DNA of 64,000 nt from Paenirhodobacter populi (GTDB taxonomy: Bacteria > Pseudomonadota > Alphaproteobacteria > Rhodobacterales > Rhodobacteraceae), in the NCBI RefSeq assembly GCF_004022215.1, contig NZ_SAUZ01000018.1, forward strand, positions 1-64,000. Direction: 5' to 3'. Positions 7,077 through 16,592 of this stretch are shown one piece after another (within the stretch, counting starts at the first letter, position 1; the number at the start of each line of letters is the position of its first letter). The notes under the pieces were generated by a model. It was given only the letters and a program-made list of their open reading frames with translations, ran no database searches and had not been told where the DNA came from. Position numbers and translations under genes: made by a program.

Positions 7077-7526
7077 TCACGCCCTGTCGGCGGTATCCAT
7101 CCAGATCGTGACGGGGCCGTCGTTCAGCAGGCTCACCGCCATGTCGGCGCCGAATTCGCCGTTTTCGACCGGCAGGCCCAGATCGCGCAGCGCCTGCGAG
7201 AAGTGCAGATACAGCCGCTCGCCCGTTTCCGGCGCGGCGGCGGTGGAAAAGCCCGGACGGTTCCCGGTCGAGGTATCGGCGGCCAGCGTGAACTGGCTGA
7301 CGACAAGGCAGGCCCCGCCGATATCAAGGACGGAGCGGTTCATCTTGCCCGCCTCATCGCGGAAGATCCGGCATTTCGCCACACGCGCGGCCAGCTTTTC
7401 GGCCTGCGTTTCGGTATCGTCCCGCATCGCGCAGACAAGGACCAGAAGACCGGGGCCGATCTCGCCGGTGACACGCCCGTCCACCTCGACTTTCGCGTGG
7501 CGGACGCGCTGCAACAGCGCCCTCAT
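7077..7526 (-). CDS. dtd: D-aminoacyl-tRNA deacylase
   Basis: DTD hydrolyses D-aminoacyl-tRNA (for example D-Tyr-tRNA) and so removes misacylated D-amino acids from translation. The 149 residues start MRALLQRV and contain the family signatures SQFTLAAD (active-site Ser/Gln/Thr) and the C-terminal LNDGPVTIW (the Gly-Pro motif that excludes L-aminoacyl substrates). The internal [10 protein letters not shown] is also conserved. ATG 7526 overlaps the stop of the upstream PfkB kinase gene as ATGA, so the two are co-translated. Confidence 0.96.
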
Positions 7527-8455
7527 GCCAGCGCCTCGAGCTCCTCCGCCCAGGGAGGATTCGCCCCGGCGCGGGACACGGTGATCGAGGCCGCGGCGAT
7601 GCCGAGCCGCAGGCAGGATTGCAGCAGCGCGGGGTCCGCCCCGGCAACCCCGGCCTTGTCCAGCATCCCCGCCCGCGCCAGCGCCGCCAGCACGCCCGCG
7701 TTGAACGTATCCCCGGCCCCCACCGTATCGACGACGGCGACCAGCTGCGCCGGGCAATAGACCCGGTCGGTCGCGGTGAAGGCATGGGCGCCCTTCGCCC
7801 CCTCGGTAATGAGCACGAGCTTCGGCCCGCTTGCCAGAATGCCCCGGACCAGCGTGTCGATATCCCCCGGCCCGCAGAGCCAGCGCAGATCCTCGTCCGA
7901 CAGCTTCACGATATCCGAGGCGGCGATCATCCGCCCGATCCGGGCGCGATAGGTCGCCTCGTCGCGGATGAAGCCGGGGCGGATGTTCGGGTCGATCATC
8001 GTCAGGCGGTGCGGCGCCTCGCGCAGCAGCAGCGCCTCATAGGCCTCGGCGCAGGGCTCGACCGCCAGCGAGATCCCGCCAAAGAACATCGCGCGGATGC
8101 CCTCGGGCAGGTCGGGCAGCATTTCGGGGCGCAGCATCCGGCCCGCGGTATTCTCGTCGTAAAAGGCATAGCTCGCCTGTCCGCCCCGCAGCGTGACGAA
8201 GGCCAGCGTCGTCGGCCGTTCACAGCGGACGGAAAATTCGGTGCTGACGTTGGATTCGGTCAGCGCGGCGACCAGCGCATCGCCGAACAGGTCGGTCGAA
8301 ATCCCGCACAGAAAGCCCGCCTCGCAGCCAAGCCGGCCAAGCGCGATCGCCGTGTTGAACACGGCACCGCCCGGATAGGGTGCAAAGGCCGCCTCGCCCG
8401 ACACGCTTTCGCGCGGCAGCATGTCGATCAGCGCTTCACCGTTACACAGGATCAT
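7523..8455 (-). CDS. PfkB-family carbohydrate kinase (fructokinase-like)
   Basis: A 310-residue ribokinase/PfkB-fold sugar kinase. The N-terminal GEALIDM and the [15 protein letters not shown] signature bind the sugar and the C-terminal [12 protein letters not shown] signature carries the anion hole and catalytic Asp. Composition and motifs fit fructokinase best, but other hexose substrates are possible. Start ATG 8455 has GGAGAG 5 nt upstream. The stop overlaps dtd (ATGA). Confidence 0.9.
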
Positions 8456-8542
8456 GGGGGCTCTCCGTTGCTCTCGGGCTCCGTTGCTTTCGGGGAACAG
8501 CACTACCGGCAGGGGCGGGACGGTGCAATCCCTTGCGGGCCG

Positions 8543-9685
8543 TCAACGGAAAGCACCGCTTTCATTGAGGTAATATAGCACACCCGCGACCAGCGCCGCC
8601 GCCGCGACCGCCGCCGCGATCTTCCACGGCGACCATGGCCGGTCGCCCTGCACCCGCCCGGTCTGGGCGTTGACGACGAACGTATAGGCCCGCCCCTGAA
8701 AGCGGTAGGCCGCGGTCCAGATCGGCAGCAGCACATGCTTGAACGTCTCGGCCGAGAATTCCGGATCCATATGGGTGATCTGCTGCGCATCGCCGCCGAT
8801 GTCGCGGCGCACGTCGGACTGGATGACGCGGATCATTTCCGCCTGCGCGAGGTGGTGGCCCTCGCCCAGATCGACGGTATAGCCCTCGGCGTTGAAGCCT
8901 GCGAGGTAGCCCGGGCTGTAGACCGTCATCCCCGACAGGTCCCAGGGTTGCAGCCCGTTGACATGCGCGGGCGACAGCGTCCGCGCCGCATAGACCAGCA
9001 CATCGTCGAAGGCGCGGCTCACGCGGCCGGAAACCGGCGTCCAGCGGATGCGCTGCACCTGTTCGGTGCGGATCTGCGGGCGGCCGTCGACCATCACCCG
9101 CACCTGCCGGGTTTCATAGTAGATCGTGCCGCGCTGCCCCGCGTAGCGGGTGCGGGTTTCCGCGTCGAAGGTCCAGAACGGCGCATAGACCCCGTTCATC
9201 CGCCGCCCCTTGCGGGCATATTGCGCAAGGCCCGAGGGGGCGAACCACAGGCTGCCGAGCCAGCGGCTCAGCGACGCGCGGGCGTCTTCCTCGCTCAGCT
9301 GAAAGGGCACCACGCCTTGCGGCTTGATCTGCCGCCGCGTGCCGGTGTCGGTGACCACGGGCGTGGCGCAGAACGGACATTCGGTGGCATGGGCGCCGCC
9401 CGACAGTTCGAACGAGGCGCCGCAGTTCGGGCACGAAAGGGTGCGGTTTTCCTCGAACTCGCCTTCGGGCAGGCGCGCCGACAGCCCCTGTTCCAGCGGC
9501 AGTTCCCGCAGCTGCGCCGCGCCTCGGCCGGTGGCGCGGGGGATGTCCTGCACATGGCCGCAATGGTCGCAGACAAGACGTTCCTGCCCCGGGGCGAATC
9601 GCAGATCCGCCCCGCAGGACTCGCAGGGGTAATGGAATTCGGCCCGGGTCCGGTCGACCCCGGATCTGGCGACGGTCGGCACCAT
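8543..9685 (-). CDS. Zinc-ribbon (TFIIB-type) membrane-anchored protein of the SPFH/TelA cluster
   Basis: A 380-residue protein with two zinc ribbons at the N-terminus: CESC...CDHC (about residues 20-43) and CPNC...CPFC (about 88-109). A long central domain rich in Trp/Tyr strands follows (WTFDAETRTRY, YSPGYLAGFNAEGY), then a single TM helix at the very C-terminus (about 355-375). Database labels such as primosomal protein N' or replication factor Y for this family come from the zinc ribbon only and I see no helicase motif. It begins 9 nt after the end of the SPFH gene and is the last gene of the cluster. Function unknown; the genomic company suggests membrane-associated work. Confidence 0.8.
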   Translation of the reverse strand: MVPTVARSGVDRTRAEFHYPCESCGADLRFAPGQERLVCDHCGHVQDIPRATGRGAAQLRELPLEQGLSARLPEGEFEENRTLSCPNCGASFELSGGAHATECPFCATPVVTDTGTRRQIKPQGVVPFQLSEEDARASLSRWLGSLWFAPSGLAQYARKGRRMNGVYAPFWTFDAETRTRYAGQRGTIYYETRQVRVMVDGRPQIRTEQVQRIRWTPVSGRVSRAFDDVLVYAARTLSPAHVNGLQPWDLSGMTVYSPGYLAGFNAEGYTVDLGEGHHLAQAEMIRVIQSDVRRDIGGDAQQITHMDPEFSAETFKHVLLPIWTAAYRFQGRAYTFVVNAQTGRVQGDRPWSPWKIAAAVAAAALVAGVLYYLNESGAFR

Positions 9686-9694
9686 GATCCGGCC

Positions 9695-10934
9695 TCAGGG
9701 ATCGGTCTTCCCGGTCCCTGAGGCGGCGGGCGGCGGCGGCGGTGGCGCCACGGTGAACAGTTGCGCGAGGTCGGCGATCTCCTCGGCGTGTTTCCAGCCA
9801 TCCTGACCCGGCGCCCAGACCCAGGAATCGCGGGCGAGGTGCCGTCGGCGGCCTGCCGGCCAAGGCTCGCCTTGCTGAACGGGCCGGTCGTCTGGCCATT
9901 CACCGCGACATGCCCGACCTTCTCGACGGCGGGTTGGGGCGGCGGGGGGGGGGGGGCCCCCCCCCCCCCGCCCCCCCCCCCCCCCCGCCCCACGGCGCCT
10001 GGCGAGAGCCAGGCGCAACCCCTCCCTGCGCAGACGCCGGAACATTGCCCCACGGCCCCCAGCCCGGCTGTTGCTGCTGGCCCATCTGCTGCGCGGCCAT
10101 CTGATTGCCCATCGCCAGCCCCATGCCGGCCCCGATCGCGGCGCCCATGCCCTGTCCGGCGGCCGATCCCGGCTGGCCCATCGCCTCGGCGGCATTGTAT
10201 TGCATGTAGCTGTGCAGATCGCCCACGATCCCCATCGAGGTGCGCTTGTCCAGCACCGCCTCCACTGCCTCGGGCAGCGAGATGTTCTCGATGTAGAATT
10301 CCGGGATCGACAGGCCGTAATTCGCCACCACCGGCCCGATCGCCCCGGTGATCAGCTTGCCCAGATCCGCCGTGTTCGCCGCCATGTCCAGCACCGGGAT
10401 CGGCGAGCCCGCCACCACGCGCGAGAATTCCTGCACGATCACGTTGCGGATCTGATAGCTGATCTCGTCCGAGGTGAACTCGCCATCCGTGCCGACGATC
10501 TCGGCCATGAACTTCGCCGGATCCGTGACCCGCATCGAATAGGTGCCGAAGGCGCGCAGCCGCACCATGCCGAATTCGCTGTCGCGGCAGATCACCGGGT
10601 TCTTCGTGCCCCATTTCAGGTCGTTGAACCGGGTGGTGTTGACGAAATAGACCTCGGACTTGAAGGGCGATTTGAAGCCGTGGTCCCAATGCTGCAAGGT
10701 CGTCAGCACGGGCATGTTGTTGGTTTCGAGCATGTAGAGCCCGGGGCCGAAGACATCGGCGATCTGGCCTTCATGGACGAAGACCGCCGCCTGTCCCTCG
10801 CGCACCGTCAGCTTGGCGCCGTATTTGATCGCATGGCCATAGCGCTCGAACCGCCAGACCATCGTGTCGCGGGTATCATCCGTCCATTCGATGACGTCGA
10901 TGAATTCGCCGGTGAGGAAGTCGAGAATTCCCAT
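9695..10934 (-). CDS. SPFH domain protein with C-terminal GYF_2 domain (reading frame broken twice)
   Basis: From ATG 10934 the first 260 or so residues are an SPFH/band-7-like domain of the YdjI/virion core type (MGILDFLTGEFIDVIEW, then a long beta-rich region ending LGKLITGAIGPVVANYGLSIP). A Met/Gly/Gln-rich low-complexity linker follows. The G/C homopolymer at 9944-9986 then shifts the frame. In the next frame VGHVAVNGQTTGPFSKASL, and after a further one-base shift near 9840 WVWAPGQDGWKHAEEIADL, together rebuild a GYF_2 domain that ends at a TGA at 9697-9695. So the intact protein would run to 9695. Two indels within 150 nt, both at G/C runs, look more like sequence errors than decay. Confidence 0.78.
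9944..9986. repeat. G13-C13-G-C16 homopolymer tract
   Basis: Thirteen G (9944-9956) abut thirteen C (9957-9969), then one G and sixteen C (9971-9986). The first 26 nt are a perfect palindrome. The tract lies in the Pro/Gly linker of the SPFH gene and accounts for its first frameshift. Such tracts are hard to read, so the base count here should not be trusted. Confidence 0.85.
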
Positions 10935-10943
10935 CTGGTTCTC

Positions 10944-11966
10944 CTATGCGTCGGGCCCCATGATCTCGGAGGCGATGGTTTCCACGATCGGGCGCGCCTC
11001 TTCCTCGGTCATGCCGGGGCGCAGGCGCGGATCGTAAAGGATTTTCAGCAGCATTTCATCATGCCGCGTGAGGAGCGAGAATTCCTCGTCGTCGTTGAAG
11101 ATCGAGGGCCGCGCCTTCGGGCTGTCGTTGGCAAGGCCAAGCCCCTGCGCCAGTTCCTCGTGAAAGCAGGACTGCCGCAGGTCGCGCGGATGTTCGCCGC
11201 GGATCACCGCGACGGCCCGGTCATAGCGCCACTCGCCGCTGCGCGAAAAGGCGAAGACGACGCAGAAGGTCGAAGGCGCCAGTTCGGTGATCGCGGACAC
11301 GGTCGCCGGGCTGATGCCGGGCACCAGTTGCGTCAGCCGCGGGCCGATAGCGCGGCGCTCATCCTCGTTCACCACCAGCACGGTGAAATTGCCGCCCGAG
11401 CGCGTCACCGACACCGGATGGCCGCTCGCCCGCGCAAGCTGGCCGGCATAGGCCTTGACCATCGCCCGGTCCTCGGCCCGCTGCGCCAGCGGCACCGAGG
11501 CGCCGAATTCCAGCGACATGGTCACCGGCGCCTCCCACCGGCGCAGCCGGCTGGGCATGACGCGCGCGATCATGCCGCCCGCCCGGCTGTCGTATTCGTC
11601 ATAGAGCGCGATGGCGATGAAATCGTTGACCAGTTGCCACTTGGCGAAAGAGGCGTCGCGCGGCGCCACGTCCTTGCGCATCAGACCACGCGCCTTCAGC
11701 GTGCTTTCGACCTGCGCGTAATAGGCCTGCATCGCGCGGCTCACCTCGGCGCGCGGGGCGACGGCGCCGTTTTCGCCAAGATCCCCCGGCGCCGGAGGCG
11801 GCAGGGGGGAAACCTCGGGCGCGCCTTCGGGGCGCGGCTGCTGCGCCCCCCGGTCGGGCAGGGAAACGCAGCCCGACAGCGCGGCCGAAACCATCGCCGC
11901 CGCGCCGCAGGTCCACAGGCTCCGGCCCCGGTTCTGAAGGCAGGGGAACAGGTCCCGGCGCCCCAT
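10944..11966 (-). CDS. DUF2927 domain lipoprotein
   Basis: A 340-residue protein with a lipobox (AALSGC, Cys about residue 33), so it should be lipid-anchored on the periplasmic side. A Pro-rich linker is followed by the DUF2927 domain. This contains SCFHEELAQGLGLAND, reminiscent of a zincin HExxH helix but with Gln in place of the second His, then SIFNDDEEFSLLTRHDEMLLKILYDPRLRPGM. Family members occur in Rhodobacteraceae without known activity. The next cluster gene starts 9 nt downstream. Confidence 0.85.
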   Translation of the reverse strand: MGRRDLFPCLQNRGRSLWTCGAAAMVSAALSGCVSLPDRGAQQPRPEGAPEVSPLPPPAPGDLGENGAVAPRAEVSRAMQAYYAQVESTLKARGLMRKDVAPRDASFAKWQLVNDFIAIALYDEYDSRAGGMIARVMPSRLRRWEAPVTMSLEFGASVPLAQRAEDRAMVKAYAGQLARASGHPVSVTRSGGNFTVLVVNEDERRAIGPRLTQLVPGISPATVSAITELAPSTFCVVFAFSRSGEWRYDRAVAVIRGEHPRDLRQSCFHEELAQGLGLANDSPKARPSIFNDDEEFSLLTRHDEMLLKILYDPRLRPGMTEEEARPIVETIASEIMGPDA

Positions 11967-11968
11967 GA

Positions 11969-13135
11969 TCAGGCCGCACCACCGGGTTGCGCCGACCGCG
12001 CCGAGGCAAGCGTGTCGCGCAGCTTCGCCTCCATCTCGATCAGGTCCTTTTCCGCCGCGGCGCGCTTGCGCTTGCCCTCGTCGGCGATGCGCAGGCTGTC
12101 CTCGATCGTGCCGATCAGCTCGGCATTCGCGGCCTTCACCGCCTCGATGTCAAAGATGCCGCGTTCCATTTCCGTGCGCACCTTTTCATTCGCCTGCCGC
12201 AGGTTTTTCGCATTCGCCGTCAGCAGGTCGTTCGTCAGGTCGGACGCCTGCCGCACCGCCGTCGCCGCCTCGGACGAGCGCTGGATCGTCACCGCCTGCG
12301 CCAGCTGCGTTTCCCACAGGGGCACGGTGTTCACCAGCGTCGAATTGATCTTCGTCACCAGCGACTTGTCATTCTCCTGCACCAGCCGGATCGAGGGCAG
12401 GGACTGCATCGTCACCTGCCGCGTCAGCTTCAGGTCATGCACCCGCCGTTCCAGATCGTCGCGCGCCGCGCGCAGGTCGCGCAGTTCCTGCGCCCGCAGC
12501 ACCTTGTCCTGATCCGGGGCTGCATTCACCTCGGCCTCCTTCGCCGGGATCACCGTGGCGTCGACCTCCTTCAGCTTTTCCTCCCCCGCCGCGATATAGA
12601 GCGCGAGTTCGTCGTAAAAGCCGAGCGTCTTGTCATAGAGCAGGTCGAGCGACTTGATGTCCTTCAGCAGGCGGTGTTCGTGGCCCAGGAGATCGTCGGT
12701 GATCTTGTCGATCTGGGTCTGCACTTCCTCGAACCGCGACAGGAACTTGGCGAAGGGCGCGGTGCGGCCCAAAAGCTTTTCCCACCACGACCGTTCCCGC
12801 CGCACGTCAAGCTCGGACACAGAAAAGCCGCGCAGGGTGGTGACGATCTGCCCGAGGCTGTCGCCCGCCGGGCCGACGTCCTTGTTCTTCACATCGGCCA
12901 GCATTTCCTGCGAGATGCTTTGCAGTTCATTCTGCGCCTTCGCGCCGAAATAGATCACCGATGAGGTGTTCGACAGGTCGATCTCATTCATCCGGGCGCG
13001 GATTTCCGCCGCGACCGGGGCAGGGGCTTCGGCCAGCGGCACGACCTCCTGCGCGGGGGTGGCAAGTGCCGTGTTGGCCACGGTTTCGATTTCGGCGACG
13101 GCCTGCTGGGCCTTGTCACGGATGGATTCGGTCAT
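11969..13135 (-). CDS. TelA/KlaA-family protein (toxic anion resistance annotation)
   Basis: A 388-residue cytoplasmic, largely helical protein with TelA hallmarks: RSWWEKLLG, the helical LDLLYDKTLGFYDELALYIAAGEEKL, and QSLPSIRLVQENDKSLVTKI followed by TVPLWETQLA. TelA/KlaA proteins are named for tellurite resistance on plasmids. In other bacteria they are linked to cell-envelope stress, so the chromosomal role here is open. Start ATG 13135 has GGGGGAAGAC upstream; an in-frame ORF continues to 13903 but it antisenses the XpaC gene and is not conserved. It lies between the XpaC-like and DUF2927 genes in the same direction. Confidence 0.88.
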   Translation of the reverse strand: MTESIRDKAQQAVAEIETVANTALATPAQEVVPLAEAPAPVAAEIRARMNEIDLSNTSSVIYFGAKAQNELQSISQEMLADVKNKDVGPAGDSLGQIVTTLRGFSVSELDVRRERSWWEKLLGRTAPFAKFLSRFEEVQTQIDKITDDLLGHEHRLLKDIKSLDLLYDKTLGFYDELALYIAAGEEKLKEVDATVIPAKEAEVNAAPDQDKVLRAQELRDLRAARDDLERRVHDLKLTRQVTMQSLPSIRLVQENDKSLVTKINSTLVNTVPLWETQLAQAVTIQRSSEAATAVRQASDLTNDLLTANAKNLRQANEKVRTEMERGIFDIEAVKAANAELIGTIEDSLRIADEGKRKRAAAEKDLIEMEAKLRDTLASARSAQPGGAA

Positions 13136-13197
13136 GTCTTCCCCCGTTCGCGGCGCGCCGGTCGCTGCCGGTCGCCCGCCGTTGCATTTTCCGCAGG

Positions 13198-14142
13198 TCA
13201 CTGGCCGGCGGATGGTTCCTTGGTCGGGTCGGGCAGTTTCGGCGTCACCACGCCCTCGCGCGCCAGACGGTCGCGCAGGACGTCGATCTCGATCTCCAGC
13301 CCCTCGCGGCCGCCTGCGATCAGCGATTGCGTCCGGGCGGTGAAATTCCCTTCCAGATCGGTCAGCAGCGCCTCGTAATCCGAACGCGCCTTGGCATCCC
13401 GGGTCGCGGTCCAGAGATCGGCGAACTTCACCGTCGCGTCGCGCGCGCCCATCAGGTAGACGCCCATGTAGCGCCGGGCCGAGGCCAGATCGCCCGGATC
13501 CTCCTCGACCGCGCGGAACAGGTCCTGCGCGGTGGCGGCAAAGCGTTCGACCCGCGCCGACAGCAGCGGATCCTGCGCGCGCCGGATCGCGTCGCGCATC
13601 TCGGTCAGGTGTTTTTCGCCCTCGGCGACGGCGCGGGCGACGCGGTCCTGCTGGAACCCGTCGATGCCCTCCATCCCCTTGTCCTTCATCGGATCGGGGC
13701 CGAAGGCCGCGAGCGACAGCGCCGTCCCCACCGCGCCCACGACGATCGCACCCGCAAGCCCCATCTCGGGCGCCTGCGCGCCAAGCGCGAGCCCCGCGCC
13801 GAACACGACCGAGCCAAAGATCTTGCGCGGAATCGCCGGGCGGCGGGCGACCTTGCGCGCCATCCATGCCGCCTCGGCGCGCAGCCCCTCGCGCAGCAGC
13901 CACACGCCCCCGCCGATCAGGGCGAAGGCGCCGATGCCGCGCACAAGCGCCTCCGGCCCGCCGCCGAAGGCCTGCCCCAGAAAGGGGAGCGCCGCGACAA
14001 GCAGCCAGCCCGTGCGCCGCGCCAGCGGATGCGGCGGCGGCGCACCCACGGGAAGGGCGCGGCCGGGTGCGACGCCGGGATAGCCCTGCGGGGGCGGCCG
14101 GCCGTCCTGCGGGCTGTATTTGCCGCCGTAGCGCCGGGCCAT
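13198..14142 (-). CDS. XpaC-like membrane protein (5-bromo-4-chloroindolyl phosphate hydrolysis family)
   Basis: A 314-residue protein. A Pro/Gly-rich N-terminus (to about residue 40) is followed by hydrophobic segments near 44-62, 65-83 and 108-145 and then a soluble helical domain with LLSARVERFAATAQDLFRAVEEDP and YLMGARDATVKFADLW. These match the XpaC family, which is regularly found next to TelA. The enzyme name is historical (from a Bacillus screen) and no phosphatase motif is visible. It begins 1 nt after the small ORF 14144-14227 and is followed by telA 62 nt on. Confidence 0.83.
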   Translation of the reverse strand: MARRYGGKYSPQDGRPPPQGYPGVAPGRALPVGAPPPHPLARRTGWLLVAALPFLGQAFGGGPEALVRGIGAFALIGGGVWLLREGLRAEAAWMARKVARRPAIPRKIFGSVVFGAGLALGAQAPEMGLAGAIVVGAVGTALSLAAFGPDPMKDKGMEGIDGFQQDRVARAVAEGEKHLTEMRDAIRRAQDPLLSARVERFAATAQDLFRAVEEDPGDLASARRYMGVYLMGARDATVKFADLWTATRDAKARSDYEALLTDLEGNFTARTQSLIAGGREGLEIEIDVLRDRLAREGVVTPKLPDPTKEPSAGQ

Positions 14143-14143
14143 C

Positions 14144-14227
14144 TCAGACCGTTCCCTTCAGCGCCAGCGAAAGGGTCAGGGCGAAGAGCAGCCAGAAAGA
14201 GACGGTTTGCACGGTCTTGCGGGACAT
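14144..14227 (-). CDS. Small membrane peptide upstream of the XpaC-like gene
   Basis: A 27-residue ORF (MSRKTVQTVSFWLLFALTLS then LALKGTV): short basic N-terminus and one hydrophobic helix (residues 10-23), the layout of a small single-pass membrane protein. Its TGA is separated from the ATG of the XpaC-like gene by one nucleotide, so the two are likely translationally coupled. Upstream has GAGGAG about 14 nt and GGAAG 3 nt before the ATG. A strong stem (AGCGGGCG/CGCCCGCT, 14252-14272) precedes it. Too short for usual gene calling; no family recognised. Confidence 0.5.
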   Translation of the reverse strand: MSRKTVQTVSFWLLFALTLSLALKGTV

Positions 14228-14342: not shown

Positions 14343-16031
14343 TCAGCGCTTCGGGCCGCGGGGGCCGTCGAACTTGCGCCCGCCGGGTTTGGGGCCGGGC
14401 TTCGGGCCGTCGAATTTGCGCGGACCGCCCTTCGGTCCATCGAAGCGCGGCTTGGCCGGGCGCGCGGCATCATCCCCGGCGCGGTGGGATTTGAAACCCT
14501 CGGTGCGGGGCTTGCCTTTCGCGCCCTGGCTCTTGTAGCCCGCGCTCTGGAAGCCGCCGGGCTTGCGGTCGGCGCCGCTGCGCCCCTCGGCTCCCTCGCG
14601 GCGCGGACGGTCGCCCCATTCCGGCTTGCCTTCGCGGCGCGGCGGGCGGGCGTCGTCGTCACGTCCACCGAAGGGGCGCTTGCCCTGCGGTTTGGCGCCG
14701 AAACCTGCCTTGCGGTCATCATCAAAGCGCCGGGCCGGGCGGGCATCATCGTCGCGTCCACCGAAGGGGCGCTTGCCTTGCGGTTTCGCACCGAAACCTG
14801 TCTTGCGATCGTCGTCGCGCCCGCCATAGGGACGCTTGCCCTGCGGTTTCGCACCGAAGCCAGCCTTGCGGTCGTCATCGAAGCGCCGGGCCGGGCGCGC
14901 CTCGCCATCGCGGGCCTCGAACGGGCGCTTGCCGAAGGGCTTCTTGCGATCATCGCCGTCGCGCGCGCCATATCCACGGCGCTCCCCATCTTCACGCGCC
15001 GGACGAGGTTTGCGCGCGAAGCCATTGTCACCAATGCCTTTATCGCCAAAGCTCTTGCGCGCCGGACGGTCACCCTCGTCCCGATGCGAACGGAACCCCT
15101 CGGCCCTGGGTTTGTCGGCGCGGGGCTTGCCGTCCTTGCTCCAACGGGACTTGCGCTCTTCGCCCGGACCGGCGGTGCGCGGCCCGTCCCCATCGCGCGG
15201 GGCGGATCTCATCGGGCGATCGCCGCCCGGTCCGCGCTTCGGCGCATAGGAAACCCGCTCGGCCAGCGGCGCGCGGCCATCCTCGGCCCCGGTCAGCAGC
15301 TTGTCGCCCAGCTGGTCGCGGATCACCTTGCGCTTCACCTCGACCACATCGCCGGGCTGCATCTCGTTCAGGCGGAAGGGGCCGTAGCTCACCCGGATCA
15401 GCCGGTTCACCGTCAGCCCGACCGCCGCCATGGCGCGGCGGATTTCGCGGTTGCGCCCCTCGCGGATGCCCACGGTCAGCCAGGCGTTCGCGCCCTGCTG
15501 ACGGTCGAGCGTGATCTCCATCGGCTGGAAATCCTCGCCCTCGATGGTGATGCCCGCGCGCAGGGGGTTGAAGGTGTCGTCCATCGGCCGGCCGTTCACC
15601 CGCACGCGATATTTGCGCAGCCAGGCGGTTTCCGGATGTTCCAGCCGCCGCTTGAGCCCGCCATCGTTGGTCAGCAGCAACAGCCCCTCGGAATTGAGGT
15701 CGAGCCGCCCGATATTCAGCACCCGCGGCATGCCCGAGGGCATTTCGTCAAAGATCGTGCGGCGGCCCTGTTCGTCCTTCTCGGTCGTCACGAGGCCGAG
15801 CGGCTTGTAGTAAAGCCACAGCCGCGTTTCCTGCGGCGCGTCGAGCGGCTTGCCGTCCACCACCACCTTGTCGCCCGGCCGCACGTCGAGCGCGGGCGAG
15901 GCGATGGTCTTGCCGTTCACCGACACCCGGCCTTCGAGGATCATCTTCTCGGCATCGCGGCGCGAGGCAACGCCCGAACGCGCGATCACCTTGGCGATGC
16001 GTTCGGAGGCGGAACTTGGGGTATCGGTCAT
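14343..16031 (-). CDS. rRNA pseudouridine synthase (RluB/RsuA family) with long repetitive basic tail
   Basis: Residues 1-60 are an S4 RNA-binding domain (RIAKVIARSGVASRRDAEKMI). Residues 70-235 are the RsuA/RluB catalytic domain with the active-site Asp111 in GRLDLNSEG and the REGRNREIRRAM motif. In this family the enzyme modifies U2605 of 23S rRNA (RluB) or related sites. From about residue 260 to 562 there is a disordered Arg/Asp/Gly/Lys-rich tail with tandem copies of RRFDDDRKAGFGAKPQGKRP-like units, unusual in length. Start ATG 16031 has AGAAGGA 8 nt upstream. It is divergent from tadA, 105 nt away. Confidence 0.92.
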   Translation of the reverse strand: MTDTPSSASERIAKVIARSGVASRRDAEKMILEGRVSVNGKTIASPALDVRPGDKVVVDGKPLDAPQETRLWLYYKPLGLVTTEKDEQGRRTIFDEMPSGMPRVLNIGRLDLNSEGLLLLTNDGGLKRRLEHPETAWLRKYRVRVNGRPMDDTFNPLRAGITIEGEDFQPMEITLDRQQGANAWLTVGIREGRNREIRRAMAAVGLTVNRLIRVSYGPFRLNEMQPGDVVEVKRKVIRDQLGDKLLTGAEDGRAPLAERVSYAPKRGPGGDRPMRSAPRDGDGPRTAGPGEERKSRWSKDGKPRADKPRAEGFRSHRDEGDRPARKSFGDKGIGDNGFARKPRPAREDGERRGYGARDGDDRKKPFGKRPFEARDGEARPARRFDDDRKAGFGAKPQGKRPYGGRDDDRKTGFGAKPQGKRPFGGRDDDARPARRFDDDRKAGFGAKPQGKRPFGGRDDDARPPRREGKPEWGDRPRREGAEGRSGADRKPGGFQSAGYKSQGAKGKPRTEGFKSHRAGDDAARPAKPRFDGPKGGPRKFDGPKPGPKPGGRKFDGPRGPKR

Positions 16032-16136
16032 GGCGAAATCCTTCTGGGGGAGGGGGCGCGCGAAATGCGGGCAAGCTGCGCTGATACACCCGATGCGGCG
16101 CGTTGCAAAGCGGATTGAATGCGGCGAAGAAGGGGG

Positions 16137-16592
16137 ATGCGATTCACCTCCTACATGGATCTGGCGCTGGATGAGGCGCGGGCGGCGGCGGCACGCGGCG
16201 AGGTGCCGGTGGGCGCCGTCATCGTCGCGCCCGGCGGCCGGGTCGTCGCGCAGGCGGGAAACCGCACGCGGGAGCTGAAGGACCCGACGGCGCATGCCGA
16301 AATCCTCGCGCTCCGGACGGCCTGCGCGGCGGCGGGATCGGAGCGGCTGCCGGGGCATGATCTTTACGTCACGCTGGAACCCTGCCCGATGTGCGCCTCG
16401 GCCCTGTCGCAGGCACGGATCGCGCGGATCTATTATGGCGCGGCGGATCCGAAATCCGGCGGGGTGGCGCAGGGCCCGCGCGTCTTCGCCCATCCGCAAT
16501 GCCATCACGTGCCGGAAGTCTACGACGGAATCGCCGCACGTGAGGCGGAAGAGCTGCTGAAGCGGTTCTTCGCGGACAGGCGCGGCGCCTGA
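16137..16592 (+). CDS. tadA: tRNA-specific adenosine deaminase
   Basis: TadA converts the wobble adenosine of tRNA-Arg(ACG) to inosine. From ATG 16137 the protein has 151 residues with the zinc-binding, proton-shuttling HAE (His53, Glu55) and PCPMC (Cys83, Cys86) motifs of the CDA fold, and the C-terminal HHVPEVYDGI segment typical of TadA. AAGAAGGGGG lies just before this ATG. Starts at 16119 or 16155 are possible. A repeat module begins 10 nt after the stop. Confidence 0.94.
   Translation: MRFTSYMDLALDEARAAAARGEVPVGAVIVAPGGRVVAQAGNRTRELKDPTAHAEILALRTACAAAGSERLPGHDLYVTLEPCPMCASALSQARIARIYYGAADPKSGGVAQGPRVFAHPQCHHVPEVYDGIAAREAEELLKRFFADRRGA

Follow-up and report, generated by a model that had tools for sequence, protein, structure and literature searches.

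A conserved micropeptide, XpaC, TelA, SPFH and zinc-ribbon gene cluster of the Rhodobacter family and its possible role in membrane stress

Six genes of Paenirhodobacter populi, packed in a single direction, raise the question of whether they encode one machine and which of them belong to it. They were analysed in a window of 64,000 nucleotides (contig NZ_SAUZ01000018.1, positions 1 to 64,000; assembly GCF_004022215.1), where they occupy positions 8543 to 14227 between an rluB-type open reading frame (ORF; 14343-16508) and a pfkB-type kinase gene (7523-8503). All six ORFs are on the minus strand. In reading order they encode a 27-residue micropeptide with a single transmembrane (TM) segment (14144..14227; ORF 14147-14227 plus the stop codon at 14144-14146), an XpaC-like protein of 314 amino acids (13198..14142; Pfam PF10112, E = 3.3e-20), a TelA-family protein of 388 amino acids without a TM segment (11969..13135; PF05816, 3.8e-106), a predicted DUF2927 lipoprotein (10944..11966; PF11150, 1.4e-65), an SPFH protein of the Band_7_1 family (9900..10934; PF13421, 8e-102) and a two-zinc-ribbon protein with a C-terminal TM segment, ZnR (8543..9685). 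By coordinates, the gaps are 1 nt between micropeptide and XpaC, 62 nt between XpaC and TelA, 2 nt between TelA and DUF2927 and 9 nt between DUF2927 and SPFH. An original prediction, made from the letters alone, had described six tightly packed co-directional genes and proposed that they form one machine, perhaps for envelope stress or membrane remodelling. The layout and the TelA, XpaC-like and DUF2927 identities were confirmed by the coordinates and Pfam matches, and most of the machine was retained. The micropeptide, XpaC, TelA, SPFH and ZnR genes form a conserved genetic unit, as their order, their joint losses and their reappearance in distant families indicate (with one exception, genome G081), but DUF2927 did not hold up as a required part.

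Conservation and loss of the cluster genes

Conservation was assessed in 149 genomes of the order, all from one family (the Rhodobacter family) and including that of the window. TelA was present in 147 genomes, Band_7_1 in 146 (145 over the cut-off), DUF2927 in 148, XpaC in 146 and ZnR in 145. Gene order was compared in 80 fetched loci (L032-L111, chosen as one from each genus with some additions) and in 80 named loci, the best 80 of 578 Rhodobacteraceae relatives; the two sets have some contigs in common and are therefore not fully independent. All five large genes had the same order and strand in 61 of the 80 fetched and 68 of the 80 named loci, which is more than chance clustering would give, and the rare co-occurrence named as a danger to the original prediction was not found. 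The XpaC gene directly precedes the TelA gene in the window and in its relatives. Among the remaining fetched loci, some of which are incomplete because they stop at contig edges, seven lacked ZnR in the stretch taken, three lacked XpaC, three held XpaC-TelA-DUF2927 only, two lacked DUF2927, two lacked TelA, one had a TelA relic and one (L106) was split by an insertion. Sequences shorter than 0.8 or longer than 1.25 times the median were left out of the family models, and those outside 0.85-1.2 of it were dropped from the reference lists. A promoter and terminator scan of the cluster gave signals not above those of shuffled sequence.

Natural gene losses separated core from accessory parts. 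SPFH, scored as strong at E < 1e-70 for Band_7_1 (a cut chosen by us), and ZnR were absent from the identical four genomes (G011, G081, G085 and G106). XpaC, TelA, SPFH and ZnR were all gone from G106, where rluB-DUF2927-pfkB-dtd remained in place; its genus-mate G099 carries the full operon between the same flanks. TelA and SPFH were missing from G011, with rluB and DUF2927 kept near a contig end, and G085 had lost DUF2927 as well, keeping a TelA relic. Conversely, loci L041 and L049 kept the other four genes with no DUF2927 between TelA and SPFH. Because it is kept and lost independently of the other genes, DUF2927 is accessory and not core.

The same association was found in 237 class members outside the family. 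Strong Band_7_1 matches occurred in 8 and TelA over the cut-off in 17, with both in 7 (hypergeometric P = 2e-8). In five of these seven genomes, from four alphaproteobacterial families, XpaC-TelA-SPFH-ZnR were adjacent in the same order, without DUF2927. The conserved unit thus mostly behaves as one and is made of two separable halves; the genes coupled most tightly within it are micropeptide with XpaC and SPFH with ZnR.

Some loci carried additional genes or other arrangements. In a BLAST group of 15 loci, b561-like genes lie between SPFH and ZnR (representatives were checked as PF01292). The two genus-mates of the window, L032 (3644-4342) and L033, have an extra gene for about 230-255 amino acids between XpaC and TelA; the L032 copy had no Pfam match. 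In L119, L124 and L125, from other alphaproteobacteria, TelA is found with a putative secreted protein of about 525 amino acids and an XpaC-like gene. On a Novosphingobium plasmid, SPFH is followed by DUF4178 proteins, only one of them a weak ZnR match.

The micropeptide before XpaC

The micropeptide was examined in 150 loci (the window plus 74 and 75 others). An ORF of 20-60 codons with a hydrophobic segment lay directly before XpaC in 148 of them, representing 142 distinct peptides; only L143 and L180 had no TM ORF at this site. The chosen ORF began with ATG in 133 of the 150 loci. At control sites, an ATG-only scan for TM ORFs gave 0 of 78 before TelA, 0 of 75 before DUF2927, 0 of 74 before SPFH and 3 of 67 before ZnR. 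The peptides were 27-29 residues long in 122 of 148 cases and share a pattern close to LQKLA[YF]...L...G...GG, with a few poor fits such as L037; a leucine was conserved in 142 of 148 and a glycine in 133 of 147. In 35 disjoint pairs, chosen by a total DNA distance of at most 0.3, the micropeptide frame had a pS of 0.462 and a pN of 0.104, with pN below pS in 34 of the 35 pairs. For the other two frames pN was not low against pS (0.160/0.216 and 0.095/0.242). In one genus where XpaC has been relocated, the micropeptide ORF preceded 6 of 6 moved XpaC copies and none of the three TelA genes examined. The micro-ORF is thus a genuine protein-coding gene under purifying selection that travels with XpaC, and the predicted TM peptide proved real.

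Searches of Pfam and NCBIfam gave nothing above the cut-off for the window micropeptide and eight others; sub-threshold PetL and LapA_dom matches of a few peptides were taken as generic TM similarity. The N-terminal side was the more positive one in 100 of 148 peptides, tied in 46 and less positive in 2, and this charge bias suggests that the peptide probably crosses the membrane once with its N terminus inside. At E 0.05, L083, L086 and L087 gave no match to a micropeptide profile. Unproven homologues beyond the family are a TM ORF of 26-31 codons just before XpaC in L113 (E 0.01) and TM ORFs near XpaC in L112 and L115; L114 stops at a contig edge. No ATG-starting TM ORF was found near XpaC in L116 and no micropeptide upstream of B. 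subtilis xpaC; L220, a second, diverged XpaC copy, had only a poor candidate.

Features of the large proteins

The SPFH protein had been predicted to carry a GYF_2 domain. Both Band_7_1 and GYF_2 were present in 43 of 43 SPFH relatives scanned, a length-filtered set that combined 7 distant sequences with 36 of the 72 family members of normal length, but the window copy is not one open frame. Its SPFH frame terminates at 9900, and what remains of GYF_2 (9695..9943) is split into two halves that score 23.7 and 20.8 bits against a cut-off of 25.8 (PF14237; ORFs 9295-10689 and 9695-10195). Both pieces sit behind a G13-C13-G-C16 tract (9944..9986), in two frames other than that of SPFH. The tract holds the only runs of at least nine G or C in the window, and six such runs were found within 2.94 Mb of fetched loci. 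In the relatives, which are about 373 amino acids long, the same stretch encodes prolines and is followed by GYF_2. The second frame change falls outside the tract. The break may be an assembly error or a real slippage or break.

The two ribbons and the membrane anchor predicted for ZnR were supported by eight cysteines invariant across 29 aligned sequences and a single hydrophobic segment near residue 356. (Alignments A2, A3 and A6 held about half of the listed references, A4 31 of the 80 TelA and A5 28 of the 71 ZnR sequences.) No Pfam family reached its cut-off for ZnR, and for a YpeB-related NTF2-like domain there was only a sub-threshold match (PepSY/YPEB, PF03413, E 0.12). Its AlphaFold2 model (pLDDT 88.1, pTM 0.81) gave no convincing match in the Protein Data Bank (PDB) with Foldseek and VIA-align (best Z 5.2). 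The XpaC-like protein has two hydrophobic segments, at about residues 65 and 129, and by hydropathy a helical-looking tail that would be cytosolic.

TelA was modelled at moderate confidence (pLDDT 70.3, pTM 0.51), mostly as long helices (127-205 and 208-324). Foldseek returned nothing below 1e-3 for the model, and a sequence search of the PDB found no TelA relative at E 0.1. With VIA-align, ClyA-type helical proteins reached up to Z 13.1 (3.6 Å over 215 residues) and a designed three-helix bundle Z 10.2. We describe TelA only as long helices, because helical bundles without kinship also reach about Z 13. The predicted helices are compatible with a membrane-active protein and would allow, not prove, such a role.

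Relatives of DUF2927 have an HEE motif in 73 of 75 cases and a lipobox-like site in 65 of 75. The original prediction had seen a mix of cytoplasmic, membrane and periplasmic parts; by a simple lipobox pattern and hydropathy, DUF2927 is the only one of the cluster proteins that looks periplasm-facing. The DUF2927 proteins, the window copy included, have in common an HEExxQGxGLxND-like motif, which resembles a metallopeptidase site in which one ligand is changed.

A candidate membrane-stress complex and its alternatives

Both halves of the unit resemble known systems. In the pspA-ydjGHI operon of B. subtilis, a Band_7_1 protein also lies beside a two-zinc-ribbon TM protein (PF13421 registers there too). 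According to PMC11237479, YdjG combines a pair of zinc ribbons with a YpeB-related domain and a TM segment, and its band-7 partner ends in a zinc ribbon; PMC8581546 reports that foci of YdjI and PspA require YdjG and YdjH. In contrast to that system, no PspA was detected in the operon or genome of the window, and Pfam found no YdjH/TPM gene among the six; the SPFH relatives end in GYF_2 where YdjI-type proteins end in a zinc ribbon, and XpaC-TelA occupies the place of PspA. XpaC directly before TelA is likewise found in B. subtilis xpaC-yaaN, Listeria lmo1966-1967 and L. lactis llmg_1115-1116, and the window TelA shares 34.1% identity with YaaN across 85% of the query. Compared with xpaC-yaaN, the window operon adds SPFH-ZnR and the preceding micropeptide, and its XpaC has 314 instead of 204 amino acids. 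The sigma-W regulon of B. subtilis includes both xpaC-yaaN and pspA-ydjGHI (PMC3498285). The L. lactis pair is part of the CesSR regulon, and deleting it causes a partial growth defect when membrane proteins are overloaded (PMC3139573). A Listeria TelA mutant is reported to have a 4-fold greater susceptibility to nisin and a 2-fold greater one to tellurite (PMC12791056, citing Collins 2010). The six genes had been called free of known biochemistry; this stands, but envelope-stress phenotypes have been published for relatives of both halves. Judged by homology, the operon unites a YdjG/YdjI-like and an XpaC-YaaN-like module, both known from envelope-stress defence, and is a variant of known modules rather than a new type of system. 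In open-licence PMC literature, nothing matched DUF2927, TelA+SPFH+XpaC or TelA+tellurite+SPFH and no title among the papers listed concerned such an operon; a PADLOC search with five cluster proteins gave no match at 0.01.

From the observed genetic linkage we infer a mechanism in which contacts and co-expression are hypothetical. The cluster would encode a PspA-independent inner-membrane stress and repair complex, a reading to which we give an even chance. The C-terminally anchored ZnR would tether an SPFH oligomer, itself soluble, to the cytoplasmic side of the membrane, by analogy with YdjG and YdjH, which do so for YdjI in Bacillus. GYF domains bind proline-rich ligands, and GYF_2 and the adjacent proline runs of SPFH may mediate subunit or partner contacts. 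XpaC and the micropeptide would be the membrane receptor of TelA, and TelA, long and helical, the membrane-acting client of the scaffold, in the position that PspA holds beside YdjI. DUF2927 would serve the Rhodobacter family as an optional accessory on the envelope side. A more specific proposal, which we put forward tentatively, is that TelA substitutes for PspA as a long-hairpin, membrane-active protein recruited by SPFH, with XpaC and the micropeptide of about 27 residues as its obligate membrane receptor.

Several results support the complex: each large gene is found in at least 145 of the 149 genomes, the order is kept in 61 of 80 and 68 of 80 loci, TelA and strong SPFH co-occur outside the family and are adjacent in five of seven genomes, G106 lost four genes together and kept DUF2927 and the flanks, and strong SPFH and ZnR are absent from one and the same set of four genomes. 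PspA (PF04012) was undetected in the window's genome, its two genus-mates and altogether 101 of the 149 genomes. The complex is further supported by the YdjG/YdjI-like placing of ZnR beside a band-7 protein, the dependence of YdjI and PspA foci on YdjG and YdjH, the shared sigma-W regulon and the L. lactis deletion phenotype.

Other observations weigh against the complex. The SPFH gene is broken in the window itself, and the TelA fold comparison had no decisive outcome. PspA is present in 48 of the 149 genomes (47 over the cut-off); by eye its gene was never inside the cluster, the nearest noticed being about 17 kb away in G073. G081 kept micropeptide-XpaC-TelA-DUF2927 and lacks SPFH-ZnR. TelA and SPFH are 128 kb apart in G160, with no ZnR match beside that SPFH; SPFH-ZnR is on a different contig from TelA in G295 and present without TelA in G377. 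On a Vibrio plasmid (NZ_MZ496297.1), SPFH has a ZnR homologue directly behind it (5.8e-139 and 3.5e-110 with the family models), and the genes annotated up to about 5 kb away include neither TelA nor XpaC. This pair (L224:4983-7136) lies about 3 kb from a TIR-domain gene. On a Novosphingobium plasmid, SPFH is followed by DUF4178 proteins, only one of them a weak ZnR match.

Because G081 lacks SPFH-ZnR, and G295, G377 and the Vibrio plasmid have it without an adjacent TelA, the halves can work apart. The foremost alternative is that two independent devices share the operon and answer the same stress without contact, micropeptide-XpaC-TelA giving tolerance to membrane- or wall-active compounds and SPFH-ZnR serving as a scaffold. 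Bacillus keeps both as separate operons of one regulon. However, TelA accompanies strong SPFH in 7 of 8 genomes outside the family, adjacent in 5, and both genes were lost together in G106 and are missing from G011; we regard two devices as possible, though less probable than the complex.

An unlikely explanation is that the operon confers resistance to tellurite or toxic anions, occasionally in partnership with TerC. In 16 of 78 loci, a shared motif identified a TerC-like gene upstream of XpaC, immediately ahead of the operon (for example L034:2424-3248; two were checked as PF03741). The window TelA is 27.8% identical to KlaB/TelA of IncP plasmids, a member of the same family which differs in being one of the plasmid kla genes that carry the tellurite label. 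The Listeria mutant, in the account cited above, is more sensitive to tellurite, but it is still more sensitive to nisin. Near-universal chromosomal conservation suits housekeeping better than metal resistance, and the window cluster lacks TerC, with no TerC- or TerD-type component among its six proteins by Pfam. A role in metal-oxyanion stress rests on the TelA name.

It is equally improbable that the micro-ORF is merely a leader for XpaC translation with no protein role: in 146 of 148 loci its stop falls -5 to +4 nt from where XpaC starts, as a leader would have it, but its residues are conserved and pN is well under pS in its frame alone. The least credible reading, one obligatory cytoplasm-to-periplasm machine of all six genes as first predicted, was rejected, for although TelA and DUF2927 are at most 100 nt apart in 74 of 75 loci of one set and in all 79 of another, DUF2927 remains alone in G106 and G011 and is missing from L041, L049 and the distant operons.

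A role in envelope stress or membrane remodelling, as originally suggested, remains the best available guess, drawn by homology from Bacillus, Lactococcus and Listeria genes; the proposed membrane-stress complex now has a defined core and a real micropeptide. The latter represents a small-protein family that is conserved but has no Pfam or NCBIfam model scoring over the cut-off, with XpaC as its obvious candidate partner. The names of TelA and XpaC, both widespread families, refer to tellurite and indolyl phosphate and reveal little about their role. The near-universal operon links them with an SPFH scaffold in a family in which two thirds of the sampled genomes have no detected PspA, which makes their function testable in tractable laboratory strains, and natural gene losses reveal which parts go together. 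If TelA does substitute for PspA, this would assign a function to TelA and XpaC and add a further SPFH-based membrane-repair architecture beside YdjGHI-PspA.

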